Of a DNA stretch of 64,000 nucleotides, positions 9,242-32,771 are shown piece by piece. The DNA lies in contig JAKAFP010000004.1 of the NCBI GenBank assembly GCA_021825925.1, positions 1 to 64,000 of the forward strand. The letters run 5' to 3'. The DNA comes from Chloroflexota bacterium (lineage in GTDB: Bacteria > Chloroflexota > Anaerolineae > Anaerolineales > Anaerolineaceae). The notes below the pieces were generated by a model. It saw only the letters and a list, made by a program, of their open reading frames with translations. It did no database searches and was not told where the DNA came from. The position numbers and the translations under genes are program-made. Within the stretch, counting starts at the first letter, position 1. Every line of letters begins with the position of its first letter.

Positions 9242-9838
9242 TTATCTGGTGTTCATTCTAAGTCTGCGGCTGAGGACGATGACGGCCACCAGGATGATCG
9301 CCAAACCGGCCATCATGGGTAGACCCACTTCATCCGCGAAACCGGTGGAAGGCAGCGCTGTCGAGGTGGCGCCAGGGGTTCCCACACCACGTCCGGCCAT
9401 CTGCGTTTGCAAGGCAGAAACTGTAGCCAGCTCGGAAGCTGAAAGTCCAGATCCACCCGCCCCCATGGGAGTATTCTGCTGGATCACCACAACCGGAGTT
9501 TTGGTCGGAGACGTTCCACCTGCCGCCGCTACAACTGTTTTTGTGGGGGTTTTGGTGGCTTGGGCCAACTGTGCCATCGAAGTGGCATACATGGCCGTGG
9601 CAGTATTGGCCGCATTGATCTGGGCAGCCTGTTCCTGCTGAGCCAGGCGCTGGTTCGCAAGCAGCTTGGGTGCCACGAGCAACAGCAAGATCAGGGCAAT
9701 CACGAAGATAATGCCGACGATGGCAATGGCAATCAGGAAGGTGCGATTCCCTCTTCGTTTGGGTGGCTCTGGCTCATAATCTCCGCCGCCAAAACTTTCC
9801 TGGTCAAATTGATCCTCATCAAAATTATTTAGTGCCAT
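9242..9838 (-). CDS. Bitopic membrane protein with LPXTG-like C terminus
   Basis: This 198-aa protein has an acidic cytoplasmic N terminus, a membrane helix (about residues 33-57) and an Ala/Thr-rich linker with TKTPTKT and SPTKTP. Its C terminus reads ALPSTG followed by a hydrophobic helix and RRLRMNTR, the classical arrangement of a sortase sorting signal (LPXTG, helix, positive tail). No sortase gene is in the window. It is the last gene of the minus-strand MutL-like operon, 21 bp after its neighbour. Whether it is truly cleaved, or simply a two-helix protein, is open. Confidence 0.6.
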   Translation of the reverse strand: MALNNFDEDQFDQESFGGGDYEPEPPKRRGNRTFLIAIAIVGIIFVIALILLLLVAPKLLANQRLAQQEQAAQINAANTATAMYATSMAQLAQATKTPTKTVVAAAGGTSPTKTPVVVIQQNTPMGAGGSGLSASELATVSALQTQMAGRGVGTPGATSTALPSTGFADEVGLPMMAGLAIILVAVIVLSRRLRMNTR

Positions 9839-9859
9839 GGTATATCCTCCTGAAACAAG

Positions 9860-10933
9860 TTATCCGGGGAATCGTTCTTCAACTTCAATAATATCTAAAT
9901 TCGAAAACGGTACGACCGTTTTTTCATTGTTCTGAAAAAGTACAGAAGCTGTTGCAGTTCTCAATCCGTTGGGGAGCGTGGTCTTGCCTGTATTGATGGC
10001 AGTTAAAACCCCTGTTTTCCCTGCATAAGACGAGCTGTGAACCCTGATCTTCTGGCCTGCGGCAAATTCGGCGCTGGCAGTTTCAGGGTCGCCTGCGGCT
10101 TGAAGTGCAATGCTGAGTTCAGGGCGTTTGCCGCTGTAATGATCCCATTTGACCGCGTTAAGGCTCATTTCTTTTTGGGCACTCGCGAGCAATATGTTCC
10201 TAGCATGACCATTGATGGCGATCTTGCCGAAGCCCTCCAGGAGCAAAATGGGATAATTTTGTTTGAGCGCACAGGGGATCAACCTTGGGCTCATGCTGCC
10301 TAGCACCAAACCGGCGATGGGCAGACTTGCCGCCAGATTAAGGCTTTCTTCCTGTTCACACCACGACGCCGCCAAAACGGTGCCGCGCGTATTGATGCTG
10401 AGAGACGCGGGGGTGAGTTCCTGGTCAATGGTCTGTGAATCCACAATAAATGGACCAAAACCGATCAGACCGTTGCCCCACACACCCTGGATCAAAGTTC
10501 CATTGGTTTCAACCACTGCGCCGCGGTCGCTTAAGATCTCAACCACCTGGCCGGCATATCCGGATTGAACCACCACTTTGCGGGATTCAACTTCCAGCAG
10601 TACCTGGCCATTTTTGATGGAAATGATCTTGCCGGGCATGGGTGCGCGGATGACACGCGAGAACAATCCGCCTGTTTCGGCGATGATGTCGTGTTTATCC
10701 ACCAAATCACCGACCTGGCGGTCAACCAGTTTTTCGACTTCATCTGCGTTCTTGAGTCCAAGTGCGTTCAAAACATCCACGATCACATGCCGGGTCGGGA
10801 TGAGTGTTTCCGCCAGCACTTCTCCGGGGGTCACTTTTTGTCCCACTCGAACCAATACCATACCAGCCACCGGCAGAACACGATTTCTGCGGATCTTGAC
10901 CAGAGGATTGATTTGAGTCACCGGATTTTGCAT
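9860..10933 (-). CDS. Unknown protein with barrel-sandwich (biotinyl/lipoyl-like) segments, next to MutL-like gene
   Basis: This 357-aa soluble-looking protein has no signal or membrane helix. The middle (about residues 95-150) has repeated beta-rich segments (RAPMPGKIISIKNGQVLLE, GYAGQVVEILSDRGAVVETNG) of the type found in biotinyl/lipoyl-like or hammerhead folds, but no modifiable Lys in an MKM-like motif is visible. The last third ends with a KOW/SH3-like piece (GQKIRVHSSSYAGKTGVLT). It sits 40 bp downstream of the MutL-like ATPase in the same operon, so a common complex is likely. I do not recognise the family. Confidence 0.5.
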   Translation of the reverse strand: MQNPVTQINPLVKIRRNRVLPVAGMVLVRVGQKVTPGEVLAETLIPTRHVIVDVLNALGLKNADEVEKLVDRQVGDLVDKHDIIAETGGLFSRVIRAPMPGKIISIKNGQVLLEVESRKVVVQSGYAGQVVEILSDRGAVVETNGTLIQGVWGNGLIGFGPFIVDSQTIDQELTPASLSINTRGTVLAASWCEQEESLNLAASLPIAGLVLGSMSPRLIPCALKQNYPILLLEGFGKIAINGHARNILLASAQKEMSLNAVKWDHYSGKRPELSIALQAAGDPETASAEFAAGQKIRVHSSSYAGKTGVLTAINTGKTTLPNGLRTATASVLFQNNEKTVVPFSNLDIIEVEERFPG

Positions 10934-10973
10934 AATGTCACCTGGCTCTTATGTTGCAATAAACATACCAGTT

Positions 10974-12698
10974 TTACTGATTGGCAGGTTTTGACCAACG
11001 ATCAAGCATGGCAAGGCGATGAATTTGATCTTGCGGCAGCACCAACGGGCGTCCACGGGTGTCAAAGACCAATCCACACACGCCTCCCCTCACCTTGATG
11101 GGGTCTTTACCGACTTCAATATCGGATATGTTTACTTTAGCCTCAGGTTTTAGGGTTAGAACACCAGACTCTCCAAAAGCCAGAGGAAGTGATGCCAGTT
11201 CGCCCTGCTTGATCACTATTTCGCGTGCCTTGCCTGATGCGGATTGCAGACGAGCTTTTAGGAGGACGGTCCCCGTTTTGGCCTTGCTTTCGACAGTGAT
11301 CACCGTTGCCAGGTTGATGAAAGCGGTGCTTTCAAGCACCTGCACAGGCAGCAGCGGATTTGACCTGGCCGCCGCCCCCAATAACGAGAGAATGCCGTGT
11401 TTATCAATCACCAAGGGGGTAATGCCGACCGGTTGAATGCCATCCAATAGTGTGGTCAACATCTGCCAGGGCGTGGCAGCATGGGTCAAAATGGATCCCC
11501 CTACCAAAACAGGTTCAAAGCTTCGGGTTGTGAGGTCAGCGTGAGTTTCGAGTTCCTGCATGGTCATAGACAAAAGATGACGAGCCAGTGCAAGTTCGAT
11601 CTGCAGATCTGTTTCACTGACCGGCAGACTGTTTGGGAACAAGGTTTTCTGCCACAGATAATCCATCACCTGGGATTCAGTTAAGACTTCAGGCAGCCAT
11701 TTTTCAAGATCCGCAAATCGGGTTTTCTCCAGGGCTTTTTCCAATCCAAAGCCAGTGCCAATGGGCAGCGTGATCTGCTGACTTTCGTGGTGATTGGCAT
11801 ACGCTGCAGTGACATGCGCGGAGCCAAGATCAATGCCCAGCACCTTGCGCAGCGGGTCATATTGTTTTCCCAGGAAACGGATCACACGGTGGAAGCCGAT
11901 GGCGGTCAGCTGTGGTTTTTCATTGGAGAACGCTGCAATACGTTCAAGGCCATTGATGGAATTCAATTTGGCATCAATGACCAACAGATTAAGGTCAAAT
12001 GAAGCTTGTGCCAGGTCTTCGTTCTCAATCTCCGGCCGGATGTTATTAGTGGAAGCGTAGGTCGTTTCTTTCTCAAGAATTTCCTTCACCCGGCGAGCCA
12101 TTGCCCGGTTGCCGCAAAACAGCACCCTGGGTCTTTCCTCTGCTTTAAACAGGTGAAGGGATGAGGCGATCTTGTTGGCGATACGTCCAACGGTTTTGGT
12201 GGCACCACGATCCGAACCACCTGCAAAGATCAAGATGCTCGGTTTGACCGCCAGAAGTGCGTCCATCTGAGCCTGTGTCGAACGCCGGTCATTGATGCTG
12301 AAACTGTCTGCCACATTAAGCGGCAGGGTTCTGGCGAGTCTGTTGGCGGTTTCGAGTGAAAGCTCATTCAACAGACCGTAGGTCACCACATCCAAGTCGG
12401 GACCCCACGAGAGGGTGATCAACAGCCGGTCAACCCCCTCCACCCCACCGTGGCTTGGAATGATCAATTTTTGATTCAAATCAAGGAAGAAACGGCCGGT
12501 GATCTCTTGCAGATCACGGATCGCTGCGATCACCCCAGGCATGGCGTCAAAAACTGGATCACCGCAGGTAGTTGGTGCGCTGCCTGAAGCAAGGAACTGG
12601 TAGGTTTCTTCAACCACATCAAAAAGCACGGCCCTGGTTTGCACTGAGCCGATCTCTATTCCTAAAACCGAATTTACTTCCGTCAACAACGTCGCCAT
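10974..12698 (-). CDS. MutL/GlmL-like actin-fold ATPase (glutamate mutase L family), mutase absent
   Basis: This 574-aa protein has two ribonuclease-H-like actin/hexokinase motifs: GIEIGSVQTRAVLFD near residue 14 and GIDLGSAHVTAAYAN near residue 292, with a glycine motif VGGSILTHA further on. This matches the MutL family named for a gene beside glutamate mutase, where it is thought to act on the B12 enzyme. No mutase, B12 or ornithine gene is here. Instead it lies in an operon with four membrane proteins, which suggests an ATPase serving a membrane complex. The family call is good; the function is inferred only from context. Confidence 0.75.
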   Translation of the reverse strand: MATLLTEVNSVLGIEIGSVQTRAVLFDVVEETYQFLASGSAPTTCGDPVFDAMPGVIAAIRDLQEITGRFFLDLNQKLIIPSHGGVEGVDRLLITLSWGPDLDVVTYGLLNELSLETANRLARTLPLNVADSFSINDRRSTQAQMDALLAVKPSILIFAGGSDRGATKTVGRIANKIASSLHLFKAEERPRVLFCGNRAMARRVKEILEKETTYASTNNIRPEIENEDLAQASFDLNLLVIDAKLNSINGLERIAAFSNEKPQLTAIGFHRVIRFLGKQYDPLRKVLGIDLGSAHVTAAYANHHESQQITLPIGTGFGLEKALEKTRFADLEKWLPEVLTESQVMDYLWQKTLFPNSLPVSETDLQIELALARHLLSMTMQELETHADLTTRSFEPVLVGGSILTHAATPWQMLTTLLDGIQPVGITPLVIDKHGILSLLGAAARSNPLLPVQVLESTAFINLATVITVESKAKTGTVLLKARLQSASGKAREIVIKQGELASLPLAFGESGVLTLKPEAKVNISDIEVGKDPIKVRGGVCGLVFDTRGRPLVLPQDQIHRLAMLDRWSKPANQ

Positions 12699-12708
12699 AA
12701 AAATCCTG

Positions 12709-13383
12709 TTAGTGCATCAAGGTATTGATGGATTGCAGGATAAAGTCAGAACGTTCCACCAATGCAGTGATGGCAGTGGTCAATACACCGGCAAAAACAG
12801 CCCCAAGCGTGATGGCAATGAAGAATTGGCCGATCCAGGCAAAAACGGCGCTGAGCCATCCGCGTTGAGCACCTTTGGGAGTGGAATTTCGAGCTCCAAA
12901 GTTGAAATAAACCAGCGTGGCGATGGTACCCACGAGCATGAAGGTCCCTTCAAGGATCAGAAAGACCGGAGAAGTACCAGTTGCATGCTGCAGCATATCA
13001 AAGGAAGTAAGTGTGCCTTTTATCTGTCCAAACAGCGTACCCAATATGGCGCCACCAATGGCCACAGCGGCTCCGGTACCCACCAGGTAAGCCATCGAGA
13101 TGTTGCCGAACCTGGCCAATTTCGGTGAAAGTTTCAAAAGAAGCAAGCCTGAAAGCAGCAGCGGGACAAGTGAAATGACCGAACCGTTGAGAATGGGTGC
13201 CACCAAACGCGGCAGCACGACCTGAAAGACCAGGATCACAAAGAAATAACCGGTGGTGGCACCAATGAACAATGCCGACACGAAACGGAAGAGAGCATTG
13301 TCACCAAACAAATAACTGAACACCATCAGTGTAAGAATAAAACTGACGAGCATCCAGAGGAGATCAGCAGAAAGGGTCAGCAT
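12709..13383 (-). CDS. Integral membrane protein of the MutL-like operon
   Basis: This 224-aa protein is hydrophobic, with about six predicted membrane helices (near residues 5-25, 32-55, 63-82, 93-118, 140-162 and 180-208). The loops are short. I see no catalytic motif and no family match. Spacing is 6 bp from the upstream 753-aa gene and 10 bp to the MutL-like gene, so all are in one transcript. Confidence 0.7.
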   Translation of the reverse strand: MLTLSADLLWMLVSFILTLMVFSYLFGDNALFRFVSALFIGATTGYFFVILVFQVVLPRLVAPILNGSVISLVPLLLSGLLLLKLSPKLARFGNISMAYLVGTGAAVAIGGAILGTLFGQIKGTLTSFDMLQHATGTSPVFLILEGTFMLVGTIATLVYFNFGARNSTPKGAQRGWLSAVFAWIGQFFIAITLGAVFAGVLTTAITALVERSDFILQSINTLMH

Positions 13384-13389
13384 CCCGGT

Positions 13390-15651
13390 TTATCCTTTTC
13401 GCTCTACGGCCGCAGGTCGGATCAAGGTGGCGATGCCGCCTATCAGGATCAACGCCGCTGCCAATAGCATGGCCGATTGAAATGCTCCCAGATGTGAGAG
13501 TGAACCGCTGGATTGCTGCAGCAGCTGTTCATAGGCGAGACTTCCATAAAAACCGGCTACATAGCCAGAAACCTGTCCGCTTTGGTAATAGGGCTGCAGC
13601 AACGGAGCCGCCTGCGCGCTGACCACAAACATCAACGGTGTCGTGCCCAATCCCGGCTGAATTTGCTCCACCCAGGTGCGGGAGCCTTCAGCCTTATCGC
13701 TCAATACGATCAAGGCTCCAAAATCGCCCAGTGATTTGACCGATTGAAGCATGTCAGAATTCCAGGCTGCGTCCAGGTTGTGTGTGTATGGCATGGCTGA
13801 GCGCGGATTTGCGGCCAACAGCTGCACACCAGTGGCGCCTCCAGGCAGATAACCAAGCGTGATAACGTTTTTCGAAAGGTCATACCCTTCCACGTTGTTG
13901 GCGGCGTTTTCAATTAATTGACTCATCAAGGTCGAACCGGATGGATTGGTTGAAAGGATCACCAGTTTCAGATTTCGGCGCATCAAATGTTCCAACAAAG
14001 ACTGGGAACTCCAGGATAATTCACCGGCTACGGCAGCTTCAAAATCACCGGTCAGCAGCACCGGTTTATCTGCAGGGATGGCATCCACCTGGTCGTATGC
14101 CGATACCACCTCAGGTGGAAATAGAGCGGGTTTGATCACATAAGGAGCAAACAGGCTTTGTGAAAGGAAGATGATCAAGAAAAATGCTGCTGCCAGCAAT
14201 AAACGCCAGATCATGCGCAGATTCCTGGTCTTTTTTGGAATGACAACATCATCCTGATCAAGGGTTTCATCCACCAGGTTGGCGAAAATATTGGCGCTTT
14301 GCTTTTGCCGTTCAGATACTTTTAAGGCTGATCCATACCCCACCGGTTTGCGAATGTCAACGCCAAAACTCGGCGTTTGCAAGGTTCCGGATATTCCTGC
14401 AAGCAAGCCCTCCTCACTGGAATCAGTCTGACTGATTCCGCTTGCACGCTCTGCGTCAGGGGTCGGGATGCGCGCCGCATGAAGCCAGGCAGGCAGGTTG
14501 GCTTTTTCAAGCTCACCTTCCAGAACACTGCCATCCAGTTCTTCGGAGACGGGTTCGCTGGTGCGTTTCTCGTGCTTTTCAAGTTTGGCCGTAGCCAACC
14601 AATCCGGCAGATCATCCGGCATAAATGGAGAGGAAGCGATATCTTGCGTGGAAGGTTCGGGTTGTTTATCAGAAAATATCAAGGAATCAAGGGATGTGGA
14701 TTCCTTTTTTTCGATCACGGGCAGATCGAAATCCTGCAAATCCTCATCTGAAAGATCTTCCTCTTCCGATTCCTCTTCAGGCTGTGATTTCTCGCTGAAA
14801 AAATCGGGGTTGGATTGCTGCACCGCGATCGTTTCACGCAGGGCGTTGATGTCAAAATTGGCAGGTGGCAGTTCTTCTTCGTGAGGTTTCAGATCTTCAA
14901 ACGAAAGTTGTTTCTCTTCTTGCGGTTCTGCTGCTTGCTCAGCTTCAAGTTCATCCGCGTTTAGTTTCTGCCATCCGCTGCCGCGGTTGGCTTCAAAGGG
15001 TCTAAATTCAGATGGATTTAATGCCGCCAGTGAATCCAGGTCGAATTGAGGTTTCGGCGCGCTTTCCATGGGGGGCAAGCTGATCTCAGGTTCAGAAGAA
15101 TCAGGTTCAACTACGCCGGCTTCTTCTTCCACAGGTTTCCAGGCAGCCAATTTACTTAACCACTCATCAGTATCATCGTCCTGCTCCTGGCTGGAAGCCG
15201 CAGGCGGCTTCGCAACCTCATTTGAAGAAGCAAAAGGAGATACAGGTTCCTCGGCAGGCGCTTCCTGTTCGGATTTTTTGCCGGAATATCCGGCTTTAAT
15301 TTCTTTGAGCCAATCTGGAAGTTCTTCCTTTTTCTCAGCCATTGGTGGTTCTGGTTGAGCAGATTCCTGGCTCCTGGCCAGTGCCTCGCGTTCCATCTGT
15401 TCACGGGTGCGAATACGCGCCAGCCAATCCGGTACTTCTTCGGGTTTTTCAGCATCCGAAACAGGTTCAGGTATACCCGTTGAATCCGGTTCAATGACCT
15501 GTTCGGATTCCTCCCGCAGTCCATTCAACCAGTCGGTACCGTTGACCGGTGTGGGTTGTTCAGTCGGTGTCAGCTCTGCCTGACAATACCAACAGCGTTC
15601 AGCACTGGCATCATTCGGTCTTTGACAAATGGGACAAATATTCTCGGCCAT
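13390..15651 (-). CDS. Zinc-ribbon membrane protein with repeated DWL motifs
   Basis: This 753-aa protein opens with a treble-clef zinc ribbon (CPICQRPNDASAERCWYC, residues 6-23). A long acidic Glu/Pro/Ser-rich disordered region follows (about 30-470). It holds six short motifs with a DWL/EWL/AWL core: GTDWLNGL, VPDWLARI, LPDWLKEI, TDEWLSKL, LPDWLATA and LPAWLHAA. Then come a membrane helix (about 485-505), an extracytoplasmic alpha/beta domain of about 210 residues, and a final helix. The repeated motif probably docks a partner, and the outer domain may sense or process a ligand. Length and order are seen; the docking role is inference. Confidence 0.65.
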   Translation of the reverse strand: MAENICPICQRPNDASAERCWYCQAELTPTEQPTPVNGTDWLNGLREESEQVIEPDSTGIPEPVSDAEKPEEVPDWLARIRTREQMEREALARSQESAQPEPPMAEKKEELPDWLKEIKAGYSGKKSEQEAPAEEPVSPFASSNEVAKPPAASSQEQDDDTDEWLSKLAAWKPVEEEAGVVEPDSSEPEISLPPMESAPKPQFDLDSLAALNPSEFRPFEANRGSGWQKLNADELEAEQAAEPQEEKQLSFEDLKPHEEELPPANFDINALRETIAVQQSNPDFFSEKSQPEEESEEEDLSDEDLQDFDLPVIEKKESTSLDSLIFSDKQPEPSTQDIASSPFMPDDLPDWLATAKLEKHEKRTSEPVSEELDGSVLEGELEKANLPAWLHAARIPTPDAERASGISQTDSSEEGLLAGISGTLQTPSFGVDIRKPVGYGSALKVSERQKQSANIFANLVDETLDQDDVVIPKKTRNLRMIWRLLLAAAFFLIIFLSQSLFAPYVIKPALFPPEVVSAYDQVDAIPADKPVLLTGDFEAAVAGELSWSSQSLLEHLMRRNLKLVILSTNPSGSTLMSQLIENAANNVEGYDLSKNVITLGYLPGGATGVQLLAANPRSAMPYTHNLDAAWNSDMLQSVKSLGDFGALIVLSDKAEGSRTWVEQIQPGLGTTPLMFVVSAQAAPLLQPYYQSGQVSGYVAGFYGSLAYEQLLQQSSGSLSHLGAFQSAMLLAAALILIGGIATLIRPAAVERKG

Positions 15652-15655
15652 GGGG

Positions 15656-16276
15656 TTATCCGCTGTAAGGTTTATCTGAACCGATTAGGATGCGCACACC
15701 TGTGGCCAGACTGCCTAGGGCAATACCCAATAATATACCCCGTGCTCCCGCTGCCGGAATCTGATGAAAGCCGGAAAGCAGATCCTGGAGCGCAGGAATA
15801 TCTGCGGAAAAAGCCAAAACCCCGCTGTTGATCACTAAAAAGAGGATCACACTAAGAAAGAACACAAGTCCCATCCAGTTGCGTTGGCGCTGCAGCATTT
15901 TCAAGCTTGAAAAAGTCAACGTGATGGCAAGCAAGGCCATCAGGCTGGTCTCAATTGGGGTTTGGATGGCGGTAACCACTTTTTGAAATCCCTGATTGGC
16001 GGGTCCGAGATAGAAGCCAGCCACAGAAACCACCAAAAAGGTGATCAACACCACGATGCTAAAAAACCGTTTCGAACCTGCTTCACGCAGCCGCTTAAGG
16101 TGTACCCCGAAAATCAGGTTGGAGATCGCCACCAGACCAGCTATACCAGCCAAAGTGACCGCCCAATCCAACATACGGGTACGCATAGCAACGATTGCTG
16201 GAAACGGGAAGAAATATCCTAACAGAACCAAAAGTCCACTAATGATGGCAACCAACACGGCTAACGGTGATTTCAT
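15656..16276 (-). CDS. Integral membrane protein of the MutL-like operon
   Basis: This 206-aa protein shows about six hydrophobic segments. It starts with ATG in a 4-nt ATGA overlap with the stop codon of the upstream gene, so translation is coupled. It ends 4 bp before the zinc-ribbon gene. No known domain is recognised. Confidence 0.7.
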   Translation of the reverse strand: MKSPLAVLVAIISGLLVLLGYFFPFPAIVAMRTRMLDWAVTLAGIAGLVAISNLIFGVHLKRLREAGSKRFFSIVVLITFLVVSVAGFYLGPANQGFQKVVTAIQTPIETSLMALLAITLTFSSLKMLQRQRNWMGLVFFLSVILFLVINSGVLAFSADIPALQDLLSGFHQIPAAGARGILLGIALGSLATGVRILIGSDKPYSG

Positions 16277-17028
16277 GCCAAACCTGCCAATTTAGAGAGC
16301 ACAACTCCCAATAATACGAGAATAACAATAAAGCGAAGAATATCTTGAACCCGCAGACTGGCCTGGTGGGCTGCCTGTACGCCAAGATATGCAGGTAATG
16401 CGTAAAGTTCTTCTCCGATCAACGCGTCATCAGCGAGTGCGAAGAAGATGGATTGGGCAATGATGGAATTACTACCCGCAAGTTTATAAGATCCTTGATT
16501 TTCAGCGCCATCACAGATCAACCCGGCTTCGGCCCCAAATTCGCCCATTAACACATTGGCATTGGTCCCCGAATCCTGCATGGATTCCACAGCTCCGATG
16601 GCATACGAGAAAGGTGTTACACCGGTCATTCTTGCCAAACCGGGATCCAACTGTCCCAGGGTGTGATTATCGGTGGCGTTTCCCCTTAAGACATCCTGGC
16701 TGAGGATCTGCAGGTCTCCACTTCCGCTGGTGCACATGGGCGGCAGGTCGCTGGTGGAAGCCATTTGTGAGATGCGATTTAAAGCACTCAGTCCTGCCAG
16801 CGCGGACGGGTTTGCCTGGTCCATCATGCTTCCGCTACCCAAGGAAATATGAAGGCGGGTGCCATCTTCAACCGCAAGACCAATAGCCCTGCGAAGTTTT
16901 ACGGCAGCCGTTAACTTGCGAAATACGGGAGGAAATTTGGTTCTGATTCGTTTGGAGGAGAAAAAAATGACGAGACCGGAAAAGGCCAAAAAAACGACGG
17001 CTCCGATCAGAGGCTCATATTGACTCAC
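16273..17028 (-). CDS. Membrane-anchored protein, DUF6754-like
   Basis: This 251-aa protein begins at GTG 17028, inside a GTGA overlap with the upstream stop. One N-terminal helix (about residues 7-24) and one C-terminal helix (about 228-248) flank a conserved-looking domain with SLGSGSMMDQANPSALAGLS, VTPFSYAIGAVESMQDSG and GEELYALPAYLG. I associate this pattern, with moderate certainty, with DUF6754, a Chloroflexota family without known function. Its place in the operon suggests a scaffold or stomatin-like role, but that is a guess. Confidence 0.6.
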   Translation of the reverse strand: MSQYEPLIGAVVFLAFSGLVIFFSSKRIRTKFPPVFRKLTAAVKLRRAIGLAVEDGTRLHISLGSGSMMDQANPSALAGLSALNRISQMASTSDLPPMCTSGSGDLQILSQDVLRGNATDNHTLGQLDPGLARMTGVTPFSYAIGAVESMQDSGTNANVLMGEFGAEAGLICDGAENQGSYKLAGSNSIIAQSIFFALADDALIGEELYALPAYLGVQAAHQASLRVQDILRFIVILVLLGVVLSKLAGLA

Positions 17029-17273
17029 GTATTTTTCTCCTCAAGCAGATAGGTCGTGAAAGACCGGCATTCTCCAGAATCTTCCAACATTTGAGCAAAA
17101 GACTGCCAGGAACCATCACGAGTTTGTCCAAATAACGGTAAAAAGCCCATCAATGCCTGTGATAAAAGAATTTTGAGCGGACCGGTTCCTTCCAACAAGG
17201 TCACAACCAGACCCGTCAGTTTCTTTTGTTGCAAGGTTTGCGCCCAATCAGCCCAATATTTTCGGTCCATCAT
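17025..17273 (-). CDS. Small protein, first gene of the MutL-like operon
   Basis: This 82-aa soluble protein starts MMDRKYWADWAQTL. I find no recognisable domain. It is the first gene of an eight-gene operon; its ATG lies 7 nt after a TATACT box, so the message is probably leaderless. The stop overlaps the next start by 4 nt (GTGA). The overlap and the operon position support it as a real gene. Confidence 0.65.
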   Translation of the reverse strand: MMDRKYWADWAQTLQQKKLTGLVVTLLEGTGPLKILLSQALMGFLPLFGQTRDGSWQSFAQMLEDSGECRSFTTYLLEEKNT

Positions 17274-17280
17274 CTTTTAG

Positions 17281-17286
17281 AGTATA
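17281..17286 (-). promoter_or_regulatory. -10 box of the MutL-like operon (extended, leaderless type)
   Basis: On the minus strand TGC-TATACT is followed by 7 nt and then the first ATG at 17273. TG one base before the hexamer makes an extended -10. No Shine-Dalgarno sequence can fit, so a leaderless transcript is expected. Confidence 0.45.
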
Positions 17287-17322: not shown

Positions 17323-18138
17323 TTAGTCTATGCGCTTGATCAGCAGCTCAACTTGTTTAAAAGTTAATACCAACCAGTTGATCATGGGTTTTGTCAGCGA
17401 TAATCTGGCCAGTGGACCGAGAATCTTATGTCTTTGAATGGAAGGATTTTGTAGTGTTAAGAAGATCACTTTAAAACCTTGTTGGATAAATTGATCCCGA
17501 ACATTTTTGAAGGGACGGTAAAAGATATGATCTGTGCTGTAATCATAATAGACTTGCGTCTTGGCTTCAAAGTCAAGGTCTTCTACCTCGGGCCAATGGG
17601 GTTCCTTACCCATTTTGATACAACTGCGAATTAGCGATTTACGCAGTTTGCCTTCAGGAAGCCAATGGACAAATGGCATGAAGAGATGTCCTTCTTTGAA
17701 CTGACGCTGGGCCGGAAAAACATGATATCCGCCGCCATTCTTTGAAGTCAATCGGTCGATCTCAGTCATTACTCTGTTTAAATTGCTGACATGTTCGAAG
17801 ACGTTATCGGTCATAATGAAATCAAAATAACCGTCCTCATAAATTGTTCGACCTTCTACAGAAATTAGCGATAATGGTTTATTGTGATGTCCTTTTTTTT
17901 CAAACAAGGGCAAACCGTTGTTGATCGGTTCGGGGTCTATATCCACTCCATAGGCATCGAAACCCAATTCGCGAAGCCATAAGACAAAACGTCCGCGCCC
18001 ACAACCCCAATCCAATACTCTGACCTGGCCTGCTGTTTTTCCTTGTGAAGCTAAAAACAGATTCAGCTGCTGTATCGCCTTGATCGGGGCTTTATAAGCC
18101 GCAAATTCTTCTTCAGTTAACAAAATGTGTTTTGCCAA
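17323..18138 (-). CDS. Class I SAM-dependent methyltransferase
   Basis: This 271-aa protein has the Rossmann SAM-binding motif I VLDWGCGRGRFVLWL (about residues 40-54). Motif II lies in YGVDIDPE and a motif IV-like FIMTDNVFEHV around residue 110. This resembles methyltransferases of the 11/12 type found in polysaccharide gene clusters. The acceptor is unknown. It follows a PIG-L deacetylase gene by 15 bp, so they are co-transcribed, which suggests a sugar or lipid-linked glycan substrate. Confidence 0.85.
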   Translation of the reverse strand: MAKHILLTEEEFAAYKAPIKAIQQLNLFLASQGKTAGQVRVLDWGCGRGRFVLWLRELGFDAYGVDIDPEPINNGLPLFEKKGHHNKPLSLISVEGRTIYEDGYFDFIMTDNVFEHVSNLNRVMTEIDRLTSKNGGGYHVFPAQRQFKEGHLFMPFVHWLPEGKLRKSLIRSCIKMGKEPHWPEVEDLDFEAKTQVYYDYSTDHIFYRPFKNVRDQFIQQGFKVIFLTLQNPSIQRHKILGPLARLSLTKPMINWLVLTFKQVELLIKRID

Positions 18139-18153
18139 GAAGACTCCAATCTA

Positions 18154-18906
18154 CTAATTGATGGTATGCCACAAAGTGTGGCTGATGGGTAGTGCAGCAT
18201 ATGCTCGGACTTCTACTTCCATTGCATCCATTGATACCCAAAAGGAACTGATCTGTGATGGGTAGCAGGCTACCCCTTTGATCCATCCCGTAATCCCTGC
18301 TTCGCTGAATTCCTGCACTTCGGCTTCAGCATATTCAGGTAAAAAGTCATTCACTTTGTCTGGTTCCTTGGCTGCATACGGATAGTCCGCATAATACCAA
18401 AGCGATTTACCAAGTTCTTCGGCGGCCATGCGCGTGACGCGGTGGTCAATATGCCCGCCCATTCCCAATGGAGAAATGATATCTGCGTTTTTGGGTAAGC
18501 GCGCCTTTAAATCCTTGACCAGGTTGGCAAGCAGTTCTTTTTCTACCACGTAACCATCAGAAAAGAGATCTTCATCTTTCTTGATAATGGGTTCATGGGT
18601 TTGAAAATCACGGCGGTAAATACAATCAAGGTAATAGAGGTGCCGGCAGGTACCTCCCAACAACTCCAGCGCATGTTTGTCTTCTTCCCTGCGAATCCAG
18701 TAAGGGTTGGCAGTTTCCTTCCAACGGGCATGCAGCGACTGGGCAAACGCAGAGAGGTTACCCTCGGGGGGATCGGCTGTGAATATGGACCAAACTTCAA
18801 CAGAAATTCCGCGGTTGACCAACTCCTGTATGATTCCTCCGCATGAGTATACGGCGTCATCCAGATGGGGAGATAAAAAGATTTTTCGTGTATTTTGCAT
18901 GAACAT
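18154..18906 (-). CDS. PIG-L family (LmbE-like) deacetylase
   Basis: This 250-aa protein has the zinc-binding signature PHLDDAVYSCGG (His, Asp, Asp near residues 13-16) and the later GMGGHIDHRVTR, giving the second His pair. PIG-L enzymes remove N-acetyl groups from amino sugars or related compounds with a zinc ion. It is the first gene of a pair with the methyltransferase. The ATG at 18906 lies exactly 7 nt after TATAAT, so I chose it over the in-frame ATG two codons later; a leaderless message is likely. Confidence 0.87.
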   Translation of the reverse strand: MFMQNTRKIFLSPHLDDAVYSCGGIIQELVNRGISVEVWSIFTADPPEGNLSAFAQSLHARWKETANPYWIRREEDKHALELLGGTCRHLYYLDCIYRRDFQTHEPIIKKDEDLFSDGYVVEKELLANLVKDLKARLPKNADIISPLGMGGHIDHRVTRMAAEELGKSLWYYADYPYAAKEPDKVNDFLPEYAEAEVQEFSEAGITGWIKGVACYPSQISSFWVSMDAMEVEVRAYAALPISHTLWHTIN

Positions 18907-18913
18907 GGTTCAA

Positions 18914-18919
18914 ATTATA
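18914..18919 (-). promoter_or_regulatory. -10 box directly before the PIG-L gene
   Basis: TATAAT on the minus strand is separated by 7 nt from the ATG at 18906. No clear -35 hexamer and no ribosome-binding site are present, as expected for a leaderless mRNA. Confidence 0.45.
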
Positions 18920-18966
18920 GTATGATTAATGCAGTTTGTTCCCATTTACATTAGAGGAGTTGTTCC

Positions 18967-19275
18967 ATGGCCTTTTTTGATTTCCTATTCGGTCCAAAAC
19001 TTTACCCGGCTGAATTATCCAAGGAAGTTGAGTCACTGCTGAATGAATTGATCAATATCGGAATTAAGGAAGATTATTTATCAGAACATCCTGGCAACGG
19101 ATATAACGCGCAGTGCAGACACGTTAGAACCCGGGCAATTGGCAAACGTTTGGATGAGATCGGTGGGAACAAATTAATGCAATTGGCTTATGTCAGAGTG
19201 GCAAAAAAAGCGGGCAAAGTACCCGCTTCGCATCTCGAATATGCCTGGACGGATGTAGGCCACTGGCAGCCTTAA
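18967..19275 (+). CDS. Small conserved-looking cytoplasmic protein of unknown function
   Basis: This 102-aa protein begins MAFFDFLFGPKLYPAE and has no membrane helix. It is preceded by a good ribosome-binding site (GAGGAG, 7 nt before ATG). It contains a Gly/Arg segment (CRHVRTRAIGKRLDEIGG) in the middle and ends with an aromatic tail (YAWTDVGHWQP). No family is recognised. It is divergent from the PIG-L gene, with about 60 bp between starts, and is followed by a terminator. Confidence 0.7.
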   Translation: MAFFDFLFGPKLYPAELSKEVESLLNELINIGIKEDYLSEHPGNGYNAQCRHVRTRAIGKRLDEIGGNKLMQLAYVRVAKKAGKVPASHLEYAWTDVGHWQP

Positions 19276-19294
19276 TAACCCCTTTTCAGCTCAG

Positions 19295-19326
19295 ATTACC
19301 GGTGTTTTTGACCGGTGATTTTTTTA
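19295..19326 (+). terminator. Intrinsic terminator
   Basis: ATTACCGGT (19295-19303) pairs with ACCGGTGAT (19311-19319) with one G-U pair, followed by seven T residues. It ends the 102-aa gene and overlaps the last codons of the convergent glycosyltransferase gene. Confidence 0.65.
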
Positions 19327-20828
19327 TCCCAAAGAAATCCGCCGATAATGATCAGCATAATAATGCCGCCAAGGATCAGCATTAAGTAAGGAAAAAGAAT
19401 CTGCGGTCCCCAATTATAGTTGCGATAAAGGTACCAATCGAGAAAAACGAGCAGGAAAACAACTTCAATGGTGACAATCCGCCAAAACCAGTGGGGTTTG
19501 CCTTGACGCAACCGCATCCAGACCCAACCCACCAGCATCGCGATCCAAGGCAGAAAAGTGGTGCGGTAGCGCGGATTATCCCATTGGTCGCCACCGGCGC
19601 GCAGTGATGAGATCAAGATCCACGCAGCCAAAGCCAGACTGATGAAAATGAGGGTGGAACGCTTTTCTTCTTTCTTGGCATTGAAAACCGCCATGAATCC
19701 ATAGAGCAGAAAGGGAATAATGAAGAACCATCCCGCTGCTCGAAAAATGGCGATGCCCTTCCAGATCGGCAGCGAGGAATCCACCAATGCAGCAGGCAGC
19801 AACGGCTGGGTCAATCCATAGAAGGTGATCATGGGTAATTTAAATTGCTCGCCATATTGAGTCAGTAAAGCAGAAATCCAACCTGAACCAGACACTGCCA
19901 TTGTAAATTCGTAAGAGAGACTCTCTTTAAGCCAATACCAACCAGCAATCCCAACCAGGCAAAGAAAACCCGCAAATATGATGAGTGCAAGTCTACGCGT
20001 CTTTTTGTCGGATTGATCGCTCAGCCACTCAAAGAATACCGATCCAAAGACAACGGTTGCGGATGCTCCCACCGCCGGAATCGAAAAGAGACAGGTGACG
20101 GCGCTGATGATCAAGGCAAAAATCAGTGAACGGAATGGGTTGATTTTCCAATCCAACACGCTCCACAAGAGCAGACAGGTCAACCCGATCAAAAGAGGCT
20201 CGCGCATCTGTGAACTGCCCAACAGGATGCTGTCAGGATATAAGGCATAGATCCAGCCTGCTACCAGGGCTGTCTTGCCACCCCATTTACGGCTTGTCAC
20301 CGCAAACAAAAATGCCAGGCCTGCGGCCATGACGGCGGCGGAAAACATCACCATCAACAAAGGACGCTGCACATCAGATGAGAAAACGCCATAGATCAAG
20401 GCGCTGAGCGCCAGATATCCACCGTATTGATCCGCGGCAATGTTGGCCTTGATTTGGGGCATCCAGGCTTCGCCTGAAACTGCGATCTGATAGGCAGCCT
20501 GGTCGCGATCATGGGCATCAGAAAACACGTAACCGGCATTCTGAACCGGATTGTCGAAACCCAAAACCGGTAGCCCTTGATTCAGGAAAATGCCAAATCC
20601 GATGCGGATGATAAAAGTAACCAGCATCAGTACTGCCAGGGTCTGCCCTGCCCCCACCAGACGCCAGATGCGAACCATCCCCAACACCAGTAAGGCACCC
20701 AGTAACCCAGATTTCAAAGCGCCAATCCAGAAATTGCCGGAGCTCAATGCGCTTGTAACCGCCCCCAACACCAACCCCGAGAATAAAGCCCAAAGAATGT
20801 CATTGATCAGTGAACTGGATTTTTTCAT
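19296..20828 (-). CDS. Polytopic membrane glycosyltransferase-like protein (GT-C fold, GT39-like)
   Basis: This 510-aa protein has about 11-12 membrane helices. A large loop after the second or third helix carries DAHDRDQAAYQIAVSG, containing the acidic pair that GT-C enzymes use for catalysis and metal binding. Such enzymes transfer sugars from polyprenyl-phosphate donors on the outer face of the membrane. It overlaps the GT4 gene by 4 nt, so it belongs to the polysaccharide operon. The acceptor and donor are unknown; a Wzy-type polymerase would be an alternative reading. Confidence 0.6.
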   Translation of the reverse strand: MKKSSSLINDILWALFSGLVLGAVTSALSSGNFWIGALKSGLLGALLVLGMVRIWRLVGAGQTLAVLMLVTFIIRIGFGIFLNQGLPVLGFDNPVQNAGYVFSDAHDRDQAAYQIAVSGEAWMPQIKANIAADQYGGYLALSALIYGVFSSDVQRPLLMVMFSAAVMAAGLAFLFAVTSRKWGGKTALVAGWIYALYPDSILLGSSQMREPLLIGLTCLLLWSVLDWKINPFRSLIFALIISAVTCLFSIPAVGASATVVFGSVFFEWLSDQSDKKTRRLALIIFAGFLCLVGIAGWYWLKESLSYEFTMAVSGSGWISALLTQYGEQFKLPMITFYGLTQPLLPAALVDSSLPIWKGIAIFRAAGWFFIIPFLLYGFMAVFNAKKEEKRSTLIFISLALAAWILISSLRAGGDQWDNPRYRTTFLPWIAMLVGWVWMRLRQGKPHWFWRIVTIEVVFLLVFLDWYLYRNYNWGPQILFPYLMLILGGIIMLIIIGGFLWDKKITGQKHR

Positions 20829-21958
20829 GAGGCCTCGATAAAACGCTTGACAACCTTTTGCATGCGTTCCTGCCAGGTATATTGGGCAACATCTGTTCTA
20901 GCCTGACTGGCCAGTTTGTTCCGCAATTCAGCATCGCCCAGAAGAAGAGTGAATTTGGCTTTAAGATCTTCATAATCTTCAATGGCATAAAAAAGTGCAT
21001 TGTTCTCATTAAGCACTTCACGCAGCACAGGCAGGTCGCTGGTTAATATGGCGCGTCCGGCGGCCATGTATTCGAACATCTTGAGCGGACTGCATACCTC
21101 CGCTGTATCGCCGCCGCTGCTGCCAGAAACGGACTTGCCAAACGGCATCAGCAGGATCTCCCCCGCAGCCTGGTAGAGCGGCAGTTTTTCATTGGGGATG
21201 AATCCGGTGAGTTGAATATTATCGAGCTTGAGATTATCAATCACGGTTTTCCAGCCAGCCACTGCTTCGGGCTTGCCACCCACCCACAGGAATTGCACCT
21301 GAGGGAATTCTTTGGCCAGTTCCACCAGCAGTTCCAAACCACGGCCCTTGTAAAAGCCACCGGTATAGACAGCAGTTAAACCTTCTTTGAACCCCAACTG
21401 GGCTCTGGCTTGAGGGGGCTCCGGCAGGGATTGATATCGCGCATCATCCACGCCATCAGGCGCAATCACGATAGAATTTTCAGGGATGGATAACGCAAAC
21501 CGTTTTTCGATCACCCTGCCCAGGGCACGGGTGATCAGAACGGTCAACTTCTTGGAGCTGGAGGACAAATACCGTTGAAACAGGGGTTTTCCCAACCGCC
21601 CAGCCGGGACGTCGTGTAGTTCCAACATCACGGGCACGCGGCGAAGCTGGGCGATCACGGCAACCCATAACATGCGCGTGTAAACCGCATCCACCTTCAG
21701 GGCTTTGGTGGCGTCAAGTGCTCTAAGGATGAAATCAAAACGCCTGAGCACTTTAATTGAATCAATCCGTGTGATCGAGAAGCGGGTGGTAAGGCCATAT
21801 TGCTTTGTGAGTTCATCCCAATTCAATGCGCCGCTGCCCGGTAGTAGCAGGTGCGCTTCATGCCCCAGTTGGGTGAGCGCCTGACAGACCTTCATCACCT
21901 GGATGCTGTTGGCGGTGGAGGAAGGGATGCTGGAAGTGGCAATATAGGCTATTTTCAT
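20825..21958 (-). CDS. Glycosyltransferase family 4 protein
   Basis: This 377-aa GT-B enzyme starts MKIAYIATSSIPSSTANSI, a typical N-terminal Rossmann domain of GT4. The C-terminal donor-binding domain has AVYTGGFYKGRGLELLVELA, an E-x7-E-type region (around AAGEILLMPFGKS...EVCSPLKMFEYMAAGRAI) and a glycine-rich end. It adds a sugar from a nucleotide-sugar donor to a membrane-associated acceptor. It overlaps both neighbours by 4 nt, so it is part of the same operon. Confidence 0.9.
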   Translation of the reverse strand: MKIAYIATSSIPSSTANSIQVMKVCQALTQLGHEAHLLLPGSGALNWDELTKQYGLTTRFSITRIDSIKVLRRFDFILRALDATKALKVDAVYTRMLWVAVIAQLRRVPVMLELHDVPAGRLGKPLFQRYLSSSSKKLTVLITRALGRVIEKRFALSIPENSIVIAPDGVDDARYQSLPEPPQARAQLGFKEGLTAVYTGGFYKGRGLELLVELAKEFPQVQFLWVGGKPEAVAGWKTVIDNLKLDNIQLTGFIPNEKLPLYQAAGEILLMPFGKSVSGSSGGDTAEVCSPLKMFEYMAAGRAILTSDLPVLREVLNENNALFYAIEDYEDLKAKFTLLLGDAELRNKLASQARTDVAQYTWQERMQKVVKRFIEAS

Positions 21959-23319
21959 ACTGCCTCAGTAGTGCGATCCAACAATTCCGCAGAACGGATC
22001 ATGTTAATTCCTATCCAGATCAAAACCAATGTTGTAACGGTGAAATAACCTGAAAGCAAGGCGGCTTCACCGTTTGCACCGAACCTGGGAATCATAATAA
22101 AAGCCAGGGCGATTTTTACGGCAGCTCCGGCAGCCAGAATATAGAGGGGAATATTGGCTTTGCCAAAAGAAAGGAGCAAGGTGCGGTTCCAGAAGAATAT
22201 ATTTGTTACTGAATATCCCAGCAAGAGGAACAACATTGTCCCATAACTTTCGGGATAGTCTTTACCAAAGATCCACACCAGCCATTTACCCATTAAAACC
22301 ATAAAGAGTGCGGCGGGAACAGTCCAGGCAGCGGCAAGCAGGGTGATTTGTTTTAATAATCGTCGCAGTTCCTGCCATTGCTTGGTTACCACGCTTCTGG
22401 TGATATCCGGAAATGCCGTGGAGATCAACGGAGTGATGGGGATGGTTAGCAAATTCACCACAGACATGGCCACTTTAAAAATACCAACAGAACCGGTATC
22501 CAAAAAGACTCCCAGCCATAAAGGCCAGCTTTCGCTTGCGATCATCTTTATAGTGGCACTCAGGTTTGTGCTTATAGAAAAATGGAGGGTTTCTTTCAAC
22601 GATGTTCTTGAGTGCGATGTGGCAGAGAACCAATACTTTCCATAATCTTTGTTCATGGCCTGAATTGCCATGATGATCGGTCCGCTGCCGATGACGATCT
22701 TGCCCACAAAATAAGCAATCAAAACTTCTTGCAACCCCCAGCCAAAGAAAAACGCCAGGGTGATGATGGTGAAAGTGACGATTGCCTGGATCAATTGCAA
22801 CAAAGCCTGGATTTTGAACCGATTGGTAATCCGCAAGATACCGTTGGCAGTTTCAGTCACCAGGTTAAAAAGAATGGTCAACCCAAAAAAGTGAAGCAAT
22901 TGGATGGAAAGATCAATCGGATAACTTTTAATAAATGCTTTTGCCAGCAGTGGAGCCATAAAATAAAGGAATACAAATGCACAGATCGAGGTGATGCTTT
23001 CTATCACCGCTGAAGTTCTAATGACAGAGAAAATTTGATCCCTATTGTTTTCTGATTTTGCTTTCCCGTAAAACCGGATGACATACTCCCCCATACGGAA
23101 AGAAAACAATTGGTTAACCGTGGTGGTGATCGCCATGACCAGGGTGATCAAACCCAGGGATTCTTTGCCAAGCAGCCTGGCCGCCAGAACGGCCTGCACC
23201 GCCACCAGACCCACGCTGATGGTGCTGGATGAAAACATATAGCCGGAGTTTTTCAAAAACCGGCTAAATATGGGATTTTCACGCAGAAATCGTAATAACT
23301 TTTCTTTCAATTGACTCAT
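21955..23319 (-). CDS. Lipopolysaccharide/polysaccharide flippase (Wzx/MATE-like)
   Basis: This 454-aa protein has about 12-14 membrane helices typical of the MOP/polysaccharide transporter family, which moves undecaprenyl-linked repeat units to the outer face. The start at 23319 (MSQLKEKLLRFL) is chosen because it overlaps the upstream epimerase stop in an ATGA. It also shows the usual start of the family before the first helix (GYMFSSSTISVGLVAV). A longer in-frame extension starting at 23364 would run into the epimerase gene. Confidence 0.88.
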   Translation of the reverse strand: MSQLKEKLLRFLRENPIFSRFLKNSGYMFSSSTISVGLVAVQAVLAARLLGKESLGLITLVMAITTTVNQLFSFRMGEYVIRFYGKAKSENNRDQIFSVIRTSAVIESITSICAFVFLYFMAPLLAKAFIKSYPIDLSIQLLHFFGLTILFNLVTETANGILRITNRFKIQALLQLIQAIVTFTIITLAFFFGWGLQEVLIAYFVGKIVIGSGPIIMAIQAMNKDYGKYWFSATSHSRTSLKETLHFSISTNLSATIKMIASESWPLWLGVFLDTGSVGIFKVAMSVVNLLTIPITPLISTAFPDITRSVVTKQWQELRRLLKQITLLAAAWTVPAALFMVLMGKWLVWIFGKDYPESYGTMLFLLLGYSVTNIFFWNRTLLLSFGKANIPLYILAAGAAVKIALAFIMIPRFGANGEAALLSGYFTVTTLVLIWIGINMIRSAELLDRTTEAV

Positions 23320-24293
23320 GGAGTTAATACCTGGCTTGCCCAGGACCGTTGTTCCATATACCAATTGACCAGGCCGGTGATGCCTTCATCCAGACCCACC
23401 TTGGGCTGCCAGCCTAGCAGGGTTTTGGCTTTGGTCACGTCTGCCCAGTTGGCCTCAACATCAGCCGGGTGCCGGGGAATGTATTCGATCCTGGCTTTCT
23501 TGCCGATACGTTGTTCGATCTTTTCCAGTAATTCAGCAATAGTAATGGTTTCGTGCCCGCCCAGGTTGATGATCTCATATCCCAGTGGTTTTAAGGCCAG
23601 GATCACACCATCGGCGATATCTTCAAGATTGGTGAATCCGCGCATTTGAGAACCGTCACCGGTGACCTGCACAGGCTTGCCTTCAGCCACCCACTGCGCA
23701 AAGCGGAACATGACCATATCCGGCCGGCCTGCCGGGCCATAGACGGTAAAAAAGCGGACGATTGTGGCATCCAGACCGAACAGGTGGTGATAGGTGTGGG
23801 TCATGACTTCGGCAGCTTTCTTGCTGGCTGCATAAATCTGAAGCGGGTGACTTGAATCTGCATCTTCGGGAGTGGGTAGCGGCGGGTTCGCTCCATAAAT
23901 GGATGAGGTGGAAGCCATGACCATTTTCTTGATGCCTGTCTTGCGGCACCATTCCAGCACATTCAAAGTGCCGGCGGCGTTGGTTTGCAAATAGACATCA
24001 GGCATTTCCACCGCCTGACGTACACCTGCGCGTGCCGCCAAATGGATCACGGCCTCGCAGTCAGGGTGTTTTCGGTTAACATCGTCAAACATACCGGGGC
24101 GGCAAATATCGTCCTTGATAAAAGTGAAGGTTTTAATTGCAGAAAGCCGGTTCAATCTCCATTGCTTAAGGCGAACATCATAAGAGTCGTTAATGTTATC
24201 CACACCCACGACCTGATGACCTTCACTGGTGAGTTTTTCAATCACACGGCGAGCAATGAATCCGGCGGCTCCGGTAACCAGGTACTTTGTCAT
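23316..24293 (-). CDS. NAD-dependent sugar epimerase/dehydratase
   Basis: This 325-aa extended short-chain dehydrogenase has the NAD motif VTGAAGFIARRVIEKL at the N terminus. The catalytic Ser-Tyr-x3-Lys lies in STSSIYG and YAASKKAAE (about residues 124-160). The C-terminal ADVTKAKTLLGWQPKVGLDEGI is typical of UDP-glucuronate or UDP-N-acetylglucosamine 4-epimerase types. It probably supplies epimerised nucleotide sugars for the neighbouring glycosyltransferases. Its start at 24293 abuts the stop of the upstream dehydrogenase. The substrate is not decided. Confidence 0.88.
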   Translation of the reverse strand: MTKYLVTGAAGFIARRVIEKLTSEGHQVVGVDNINDSYDVRLKQWRLNRLSAIKTFTFIKDDICRPGMFDDVNRKHPDCEAVIHLAARAGVRQAVEMPDVYLQTNAAGTLNVLEWCRKTGIKKMVMASTSSIYGANPPLPTPEDADSSHPLQIYAASKKAAEVMTHTYHHLFGLDATIVRFFTVYGPAGRPDMVMFRFAQWVAEGKPVQVTGDGSQMRGFTNLEDIADGVILALKPLGYEIINLGGHETITIAELLEKIEQRIGKKARIEYIPRHPADVEANWADVTKAKTLLGWQPKVGLDEGITGLVNWYMEQRSWASQVLTP

Positions 24294-28163: not shown

Positions 28164-28171
28164 CTAACATG

Positions 28172-28200
28172 AACCGTAGTCCCTGGGGCTACGGTTTTTT
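28172..28200 (+). terminator. Terminator-like hairpin after tRNA-fMet
   Basis: AACCGTAG (28172-28179) and CTACGGTT (28189-28196) form a stem followed by T residues. It ends the tRNA transcript. The left arm repeats the sequence at the start of the integrase gene (ATGAACCGTA at 28169 and 28254). Confidence 0.7.
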
Positions 28201-28203
28201 GAT

Positions 28204-32769: not shown

Positions 32770-32771
32770 GC

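Follow-up and report, generated by a model that had tools for sequence, protein, structure and literature searches.

The contig JAKAFP010000004.1 of a Chloroflexota bacterium (assembly GCA_021825925.1), analysed here over positions 1 to 64,000 (the whole 64,000-nucleotide stretch, hereafter the window), carries an eight-gene operon around a MutL-like protein, the core genes of which recur in many distant bacterial groups and constitute a conserved multi-gene membrane system without described function. An open reading frame check of the window found all eight frames, designated g1 to g8, on the minus strand from position 17273 to position 9242, encoding proteins of 82, 251, 206, 753, 224, 574, 357 and 198 amino acids, respectively, with spacings of -4, -4, 4, 6, 10, 40 and 21 bp between neighbours. 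The eight closely packed genes of the preliminary description, a first reading of the DNA sequence, are therefore real, neighbours overlapping by 4 bp at most and lying no more than 40 bp apart. Its proposal that they run from one promoter is not shown: only 49 bp separate g1 from the end of a methyltransferase gene upstream on the same strand, from which side transcription may already come, and promoter-like sites in the window are at chance level (nine found, mean of 9.3 in shuffled sequences). The features of the operon are:

g1, 17025..17273, minus strand: protein of 82 amino acids without predicted membrane helix and without known family
g2, 16273..17028, minus strand: DUF6754 protein with a transmembrane (TM) helix, a Rossmann-like domain (about residues 36-218) predicted to be cytoplasmic, and a second TM helix
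g3, 15656..16276, minus strand: polytopic membrane protein, 5-6 helices
g4, 13390..15651, minus strand: Cys4 pattern and D/E/A-W-L repeat tail (about residues 1-470), then a TM helix, a Rossmann-like domain (probably extracytoplasmic) and a TM helix
g4 conserved C-terminal part, 13393..14244, minus strand: residues 470-753, the portion common to other phyla, defined by alignment and by a model with a predicted local distance difference test score (pLDDT) of 91.8
g5, 12709..13383, minus strand: polytopic membrane protein, about 6 helices
g6, 10974..12698, minus strand: MutL-like (PF13941) protein of the ASKHA (actin-like) fold, with an additional C-terminal domain that ends in D-x-RGRP, and with Glu15 at the position of the phosphate-1 Asp
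g7, 9860..10933, minus strand: protein with a barrel-sandwich hybrid and, KOW being present in the family profile, a KOW-like C-terminal region
g8, 9242..9838, minus strand: two-TM protein with a C-terminal LPSTG, TM helix and RRLR; lineage-specific add-on

Family scans used the Pfam and NCBIfam cut-offs and covered the eight operon proteins and 20 flanking genes (20 of the larger open reading frames of the window). The DUF6754-like and barrel-sandwich proteins named in the preliminary description were both recovered, g2 as a member of PF20539 (DUF6754; 81 bits, cut-off 27) and g7 by Biotin_lipoyl (26.8 bits, cut-off 22.1), the sole Pfam family over cut-off beyond those of g2 and g6. No Pfam or NCBIfam family was over cut-off in g1, g3, g4 or g5.

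Gene order and co-occurrence across phyla

A cross-phylum set of loci was obtained by scanning GTDB species genomes with the g6 alignment via one peptide pattern, the RGRP motif, which is invariant in this set because the set was selected on it. At least 574 relatives were confirmed, of which the best 80 loci were used; 13 of these have Chloroflexota-type titles and the other 67 are titled Armatimonadetes, Poribacteria, Eisenbacteria, Planctomycetota (including Brocadia), WOR-3, Sumerlaeota, Zipacnadia, Cloacimonadota, Calditrichaeota, Deltaproteobacteria, Ozemobacteraceae, or "bacterium" only; genomes of the window's phylum were assigned to Chloroflexota by their nearest named relatives. Counts of g4 in gene order comprise matches to a model of its membrane part only, leaving out cytoplasmic zinc-ribbon proteins that adjoin g6 in Chloroflexota loci with only g6 and g7; these proteins, of which most of those displayed have no predicted membrane helices, had also been matched by a first g4 profile.

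Across all loci, 70 of the 78 copies of g2 are followed by g3, g4 and g5 in this order on the same strand, six are cut by a contig end and two (L229, L242) are arranged otherwise. So conserved a gene order is far from what chance would give, and the conserved-neighbourhood check suggested in the preliminary description thus speaks against a coincidence in one genome. The 54 Chloroflexota g6 loci, some of which are cut by a contig end, have the order g1-g2-g3-g4-g5-g6-g7 in 22 cases, the same without g7 in six and without g1 in two, g4-g5-g6-g7 in four, g5-g6 in one, g6-g7 alone in 16 and g6 alone in three. The linked forms outside Chloroflexota are g1-g6-g7-g2-g3-g4-g5, or cut or duplicated versions of it, and g2-g3-g4-g5-g1-g6-g7 in Ozemobacteraceae (L187); nine further linked loci came from genomes picked for DUF6754. 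The membrane genes stand before g6-g7 in Chloroflexota, and g1-g6-g7 stands before the membrane genes in loci titled Planctomycetota, Zipacnadia and Sumerlaeota; g1 precedes g2 in Chloroflexota and Armatimonadota loci and g6 in other phyla. These order data indicate that g2-g5 are one module and g6-g7 another, with g1 accompanying either, and that the modules have been joined in various ways. The suggestion that the system is special to Chloroflexota was rejected, as the same genes occur in other orders in Planctomycetota, Armatimonadota/Zipacnadia, Sumerlaeota, Eisenbacteria and Ozemobacteraceae loci.

Two genomes encode a g6 paralogue and g7 as a single continuous frame, of 847 amino acids in L246 (Eisenbacteria by the title of another locus of that genome) and of 902 amino acids in L247 (titled "bacterium" only), the g6 part being without the RGRP domain and the g7 part without the KOW-like end; in L251, g6 and the first part of g7 share one frame and the remainder of g7 lies in an overlapping frame. 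Fusion of g6 with g7 argues for direct contact between the two proteins. Two tandem g2-g5 modules follow a single g6-g7 pair in L181, L235 and L239, and in 8 of 14 genomes for which copies were counted, between two and five DUF6754 matches, some of them contig-end fragments, go with a single PF13941 match over cut-off.

Regarding co-occurrence across whole genomes, 47 of the 67 non-Chloroflexota loci were taken, their genomes thus being chosen by g6, and DUF6754 was detected in 43 and g7 in 46 of these 47. In a sample of 149 genomes from the phylum of a Planctomycetota member, DUF6754 and PF13941 occur together in 35, DUF6754 alone in five, PF13941 alone in seven and neither in 102; the corresponding numbers among 201 Chloroflexota genomes are 43, one, 40 and 117, relatedness being ignored in both samples. 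The 40 Chloroflexota genomes with PF13941 only include three with GlmL-type matches as well as G176, the g2 of which was missed by PF20539, a family that undercounts, and found by an alignment-derived profile.

The flanks of unlinked membrane modules are ordinary and lineage-dependent, with genes for shikimate kinase, dehydroquinate synthase, M24 and M29 peptidases, S-adenosylhomocysteine hydrolase, an S1-domain protein and a dicarboxylate symporter, and clustering of the neighbours yielded lineage-level clusters, mainly of Poribacteria, or mixed, generic-looking ones. In the window, a co-directional surface-glycan cluster lies just upstream of g1 (17323-25609) and comprises genes for a methyltransferase, a PIG-L deacetylase, a membrane protein, a glycosyltransferase, a flippase-type protein, an epimerase and a UDP-glucose dehydrogenase; a phosphoglucomutase/phosphomannomutase gene, unrelated to B12, is found downstream of the operon. 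A function derived from flanking genes was considered and rejected: the neighbours of the window match only near relatives, save a Wzz-type gene adjoining the operon in L187, and for this reason no function is read from the glycan and phosphomannomutase genes. Window positions 28092-38785, with a tRNA-Met followed by a tyrosine integrase, a DnaB-like helicase and a pair of DNA methylase and ResIII-type helicase, look like an integrated element with restriction-modification genes.

The MutL-like protein and B12 mutases

The protein g6 scores 164.5 bits against PF13941 (MutL; cut-off 27), its residues 12-457 aligning with positions 2-448 of the 450 in the profile. GlmL, of the same Pfam family, is a methylaspartate mutase accessory protein, and g6 could by this relationship reactivate a B12 mutase in the way that GlmL does for glutamate mutase. 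We regard this as highly improbable. The match to the common family is over cut-off, but g6 remains below the GlmL equivalog NF040745 (65.4 of 475 bits) and the GlmL subfamily TIGR01319 (57.9 of 204.05 bits), and PF06368, the mutase epsilon subunit, was not matched in the genome of the window (G000, 84% complete). PF13941 exceeds its cut-off in 83 of the 201 genomes from the window's phylum and PF06368 in four, other B12 mutase families not having been searched genome-wide. The 20 flanking genes of the window contain no B12-binding or B12-mutase domain at an E-value of 1e-5 or below. The preliminary description had noted a MutL-like ATPase gene without a mutase and without a B12 or glutamate-mutase gene nearby, and had named a consistent tie between the two as evidence to the contrary; the absence was borne out and no such tie appeared, and the mutase-reactivase reading was rejected on distribution and family cut-offs.

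G176, a genome of the window's family, has a gene for GlmL and one for a mutase subunit about 150 bp apart and the operon copy roughly half a megabase away, a natural control with two distinct PF13941 lines in one cell. A tree placed three of four GlmL proteins in a group of their own and the fourth, a long-branch row (L004), among the rest. Because the mutase subunit is so much rarer than PF13941 in the window's phylum, most PF13941 proteins there are unlikely to be mutase helpers, and naming them after the Pfam family would be misleading. A 1264-amino-acid frame in another Chloroflexota genome (G184; L099:4233-8027), in a gene setting unlike the operon, combines a weak N-terminal B12-binding match (23.9 bits, cut-off 32.1) with a full PF13941 domain (270 bits) and is possibly a B12-enzyme-linked MutL fusion.

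Folds and topology of the membrane proteins and their partners

AlphaFold2 models built from 57-row alignments reached a pLDDT of 92.7 and a predicted template modelling score (pTM) of 0.85 for g2, and 91.8 and 0.86 for the C-terminal part of g4; in both models a helix is followed by an alternating alpha/beta domain with six strands and a second helix. The closest structure to g2 was Sir2 (Z 11.8, root mean square deviation [rmsd] 3.3, 138 aligned residues); the RCK domain of KtrA (Z 10.3, rmsd 2.7, 114 residues), GmhA (Z 10.3), the RCK domain of MthK (Z 9.7) and alcohol dehydrogenase (Z 9.7) also aligned, generic Rossmann folds thus scoring level with the RCK domains or above them; the best for g4 was likewise a generic Rossmann fold (Z 8.9, rmsd 3.4, 139 aligned residues). 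Foldseek gave two matches for g4 at an E-value of 0.001 or below (eIF2B and MthK RCK) and none for g2, sequence searches of solved structures with g2 and g4 gave chance-level matches only, and the fold searches pointed to no definite relative for either modelled domain. Homology of g2 to g4 by sequence was rejected (hhalign probability 4%) despite the like order of helices and strands. Conserved residues cluster at the C-terminal ends of strands in g4 (p 0.001) and not clearly in g2 (p 0.10), and since this is clear in g4 only, no pocket is claimed.

Over the 15 residues that follow the first helix of g2 the net charge averages +2.81 (-0.05 before the helix), which places the domain of g2 in the cytoplasm. 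For the second helix of g4 the values are +2.26 after and -0.49 before, which indicates that the C-terminus is inside and the domain outside, the first helix being undecided (0.74 before, 0.28 after); from this charge bias the Rossmann-like domain of g4 is probably extracytoplasmic.

These folds bear on the possibility that the system is a solute or ion transporter or a channel, in which g3 and g5 would provide the pathway, an RCK-like g2 would gate on a cytoplasmic ligand and g6-g7 would drive or reset it. The alignments of g2 with the RCK domains of KtrA and MthK and the presence of MthK RCK among the two Foldseek matches of g4 would suit it, as would several membrane modules per genome with one g6, which could serve several substrates with one ATPase. 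Against it stand the closer match of g2 to Sir2, the many generic Rossmann folds that align equally well, the lack of a Foldseek match for g2 at an E-value of 0.001 or below and the absence of a transporter family over cut-off in g3 or g5; we consider it quite unlikely. Much the same low probability is given to g2-g5 as a conduit with a Rossmann domain on each side, a transporter or gated export system powered by the ASKHA ATPase with one g6-g7 serving several paralogous conduits; no ASKHA ATPase is known to energise transport directly.

The N-terminal Cys4 pattern and the D/E/A-W-L repeat tail of g4 were seen only in Chloroflexota loci, and elsewhere g4 consists of the membrane part of about 280 amino acids. 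The zinc-ribbon DWL protein of the preliminary description was upheld in part, as the Cys4 pattern and six D/E/A-W-L motifs are present in the window's g4 but the zinc-ribbon match in Pfam is under threshold. Two DWL motifs also occur in the g6 tail of L076, a Chloroflexota locus without g7; that the W-L motifs dock a shared partner is speculation.

Some loci have enlarged membrane proteins. The g2 of L234 (2-3328) has at least 850 added N-terminal residues in a frame reaching the contig end, with no Pfam family over cut-off in them, and that of L184 a shorter additional N-terminal region, Ig/FN3-like by eye and without a Pfam match. The C-terminal stretch RGILxGVALG...LRxxLGxxRPY is conserved in g3. 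In L236 (4594-5856), from a genome of the phylum of the Planctomycetota member, an FHA domain lies in the middle of g3 (35.7 bits, cut-off 20.7), which is a hint of cytoplasmic phospho-regulation, and g4 of the same locus has about 100 additional residues. A small protein with a cluster median of about 150 amino acids, encoded upstream of g1-g6 in eight loci (L115, L120, L121, L126, L140, L168, L169, L181) and with two predicted membrane helices in the two inspected (L121, L140), is a possible further component.

The RnfC_N match of g7 (23.2 bits) is under the Pfam cut-off of 25.6, and g7 scored far under TIGR01945, the family of Rnf complex subunit C (18.5 of 245.95 bits). The LPXTG-like protein of the preliminary description, g8, has the features of a sortase substrate, with LPSTG, a TM helix, the basic tail RRLR, a TIGR01167 match of 17.8 bits over the cut-off of 15.9 and four sortases over cut-off in the genome of the window, the Pfam Gram_pos_anchor match (13.2 bits) being under its cut-off of 20. 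Sub-threshold NCBIfam matches of g8 were to GspG (E 0.004) and GspM (E 0.035). By its distribution, with matches in 18 loci and a strict LPxTG in five of them, g8 is a lineage-specific add-on. A known anti-phage defence system was also considered and rejected, PADLOC giving no family at an E-value of 0.01 or below for the eight proteins.

A candidate two-module system and its relation to known systems

Our leading interpretation, offered tentatively, is that an actin-fold ATPase and a barrel-sandwich protein act on a four-protein membrane complex as one two-module system. A membrane complex, as the preliminary description proposed, is the natural reading of a conserved gene set around a MutL-like protein without a mutase. 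A cytoplasmic module A would combine g6 as the ASKHA ATPase with the barrel-sandwich g7 and the small g1, and module B would be a membrane complex of g2-g3-g4-g5, whose Rossmann-like domains would face the cytoplasm in g2 and the outside in g4. Both g6 and g7 would bind the cytoplasmic face of module B through the g2 domain, the loops of g3 and, in Chloroflexota, the tail of g4, and the nucleotide-driven opening and closing of g6, relayed via g7, would assemble, reset or open the complex. Other ASKHA proteins of the GlmL, BadF and diol-dehydratase-reactivase types act on their partner enzymes in a like manner. The gene linkage kept across phyla, with the modules joined in various orders, their co-occurrence when unlinked, the folds of g2 and g4, the intact motifs of other phyla, the g6-g7 fusion, the tandem membrane modules with one g6-g7 pair and the two PF13941 lines in G176 speak for this interpretation; the physical complex, the direction in which energy is used and remodelling as the outcome are inferred.

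Several observations weigh against this interpretation. Outside Chloroflexota, g6 is linked to g2 in 10 of the 67 loci, a low number partly because contigs are short, and the other 57 have no module B in the stretch read, save a g3 in L125. Five of the 40 DUF6754 genomes in the 149-genome sample are without PF13941, all five with g4, and g4 was detected in one of the seven PF13941-only genomes and not in the other six. Of the 40 Chloroflexota genomes with PF13941 only, 18 that have g6 without linked membrane genes were tested, and all 18 were without g2 anywhere by profile search, and without g4 save a marginal match in G157 (E 4e-4), and g7 adjoins g6 in 16 of these 18, so that g6-g7 can persist without module B. 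G184, tested alongside, has g4 (E 4e-55) and a different, larger PF13941 protein. The remaining points concern the stretches of g6 that are taken to correspond to the nucleotide motifs of ASKHA proteins. In 56 Chloroflexota rows the motifs are loosened, the phosphate-1 Asp being D in 81% and E in 19%, and those of the window's g6 are decayed, reading E-I-G-S-V-Q-T-R and D-L-G-S-A-H-V-T.

Some of these observations would suit two independent systems, g6-g7 with a housekeeping role of its own and module B with another, tied by common regulation and history only. The separation of g6 from module B in the 18 Chloroflexota genomes and in the 57 loci of other groups favours this view, but the modules are joined in several phyla in differing orders and co-occur strongly when unlinked, and we consider it unlikely.

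The motifs bear on the proposal that the complex is ATP-driven. The core residues of phosphate-1 (D-C-G-S-T-T-T-K), phosphate-2 (D-I-G-G-A-T-T) and adenosine (G-S-G-G) do not vary among the 68 rows from other phyla, although these rows are the top-scoring portion of a larger set, a choice that favours conserved sequences. The system was thus probably ATP-driven ancestrally. Because the motifs are decayed in the window's g6, the ATP-driven role suggested in the preliminary description is uncertain for this organism and its lineage; g6 there may be mainly a nucleotide-binding scaffold. In genomes G258 and G286 (L248, L249), a g6-g7 pair additional to the better-scoring copies has ATPase motifs that look intact and matches g7 in part.

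Alternatively, g6 could be a static nucleotide-binding scaffold like PilM or the cytoplasmic domain of GspL, and the operon an export or surface-assembly platform with energy from elsewhere, an alternative that we hold possible though doubtful. PilM was the best sequence match of the g6 profile among solved structures, a weak one (E 0.0022, about 70 profile positions), and the decayed motifs, two polytopic proteins alongside proteins with domains on both faces, and the surface-protein-like g8 with its GspG and GspM matches and the four sortases are consistent with a platform. However, no pilin, PilB/GspE or secretin was over cut-off in the eight operon and 20 flanking genes, the rest of the genome not having been searched, and the motif cores fully kept in the 68 rows from other phyla would be needless for a pure scaffold.

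Neither the databases nor the open-access papers searched give a function, in agreement with an undescribed system: no open-access paper was found with the terms DUF6754, PF20539 or PF13941, the subscription literature being outside the scope, and among the matches listed, which took in Chloroflexi, Poribacteria and Armatimonadetes, no title or abstract start describes such a MutL-like membrane system. A system common to many uncultured or rarely studied phyla is a sizeable blank in bacterial cell biology, and the question is testable, with seven defined proteins, a natural fusion predicting contact and genomes with one ATPase per several membrane modules.

Compared with known systems, g2 belongs to DUF6754 (PF20539), a family without assigned function, and resembles the RCK/KTN domains of KtrA and MthK in having a Rossmann-like fold by the membrane on the cytoplasmic side, but differs in its helix anchor at each end, in the lack of a recognised channel protein and in the generic nature of the fold match. 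The inner-membrane platforms to which PilM (type IV pili) and GspL (type II secretion) belong resemble the operon in having an apparent ASKHA-fold cytoplasmic protein encoded with membrane proteins, the profile match of g6 to PilM being weak; the operon and scanned flanks differ, as none of the pilin, assembly ATPase and secretin families was over cut-off in them. The barrel-sandwich N-terminal domain of RnfC and NqrA is approached by the sub-cut-off RnfC_N match of g7, which has a C-terminal KOW-like region instead. The GlmL/MutL family has its ASKHA core in common with g6, which differs in carrying an extra C-terminal D-x-RGRP domain and in having g1-g5 and g7, rather than a mutase, as its partner genes.

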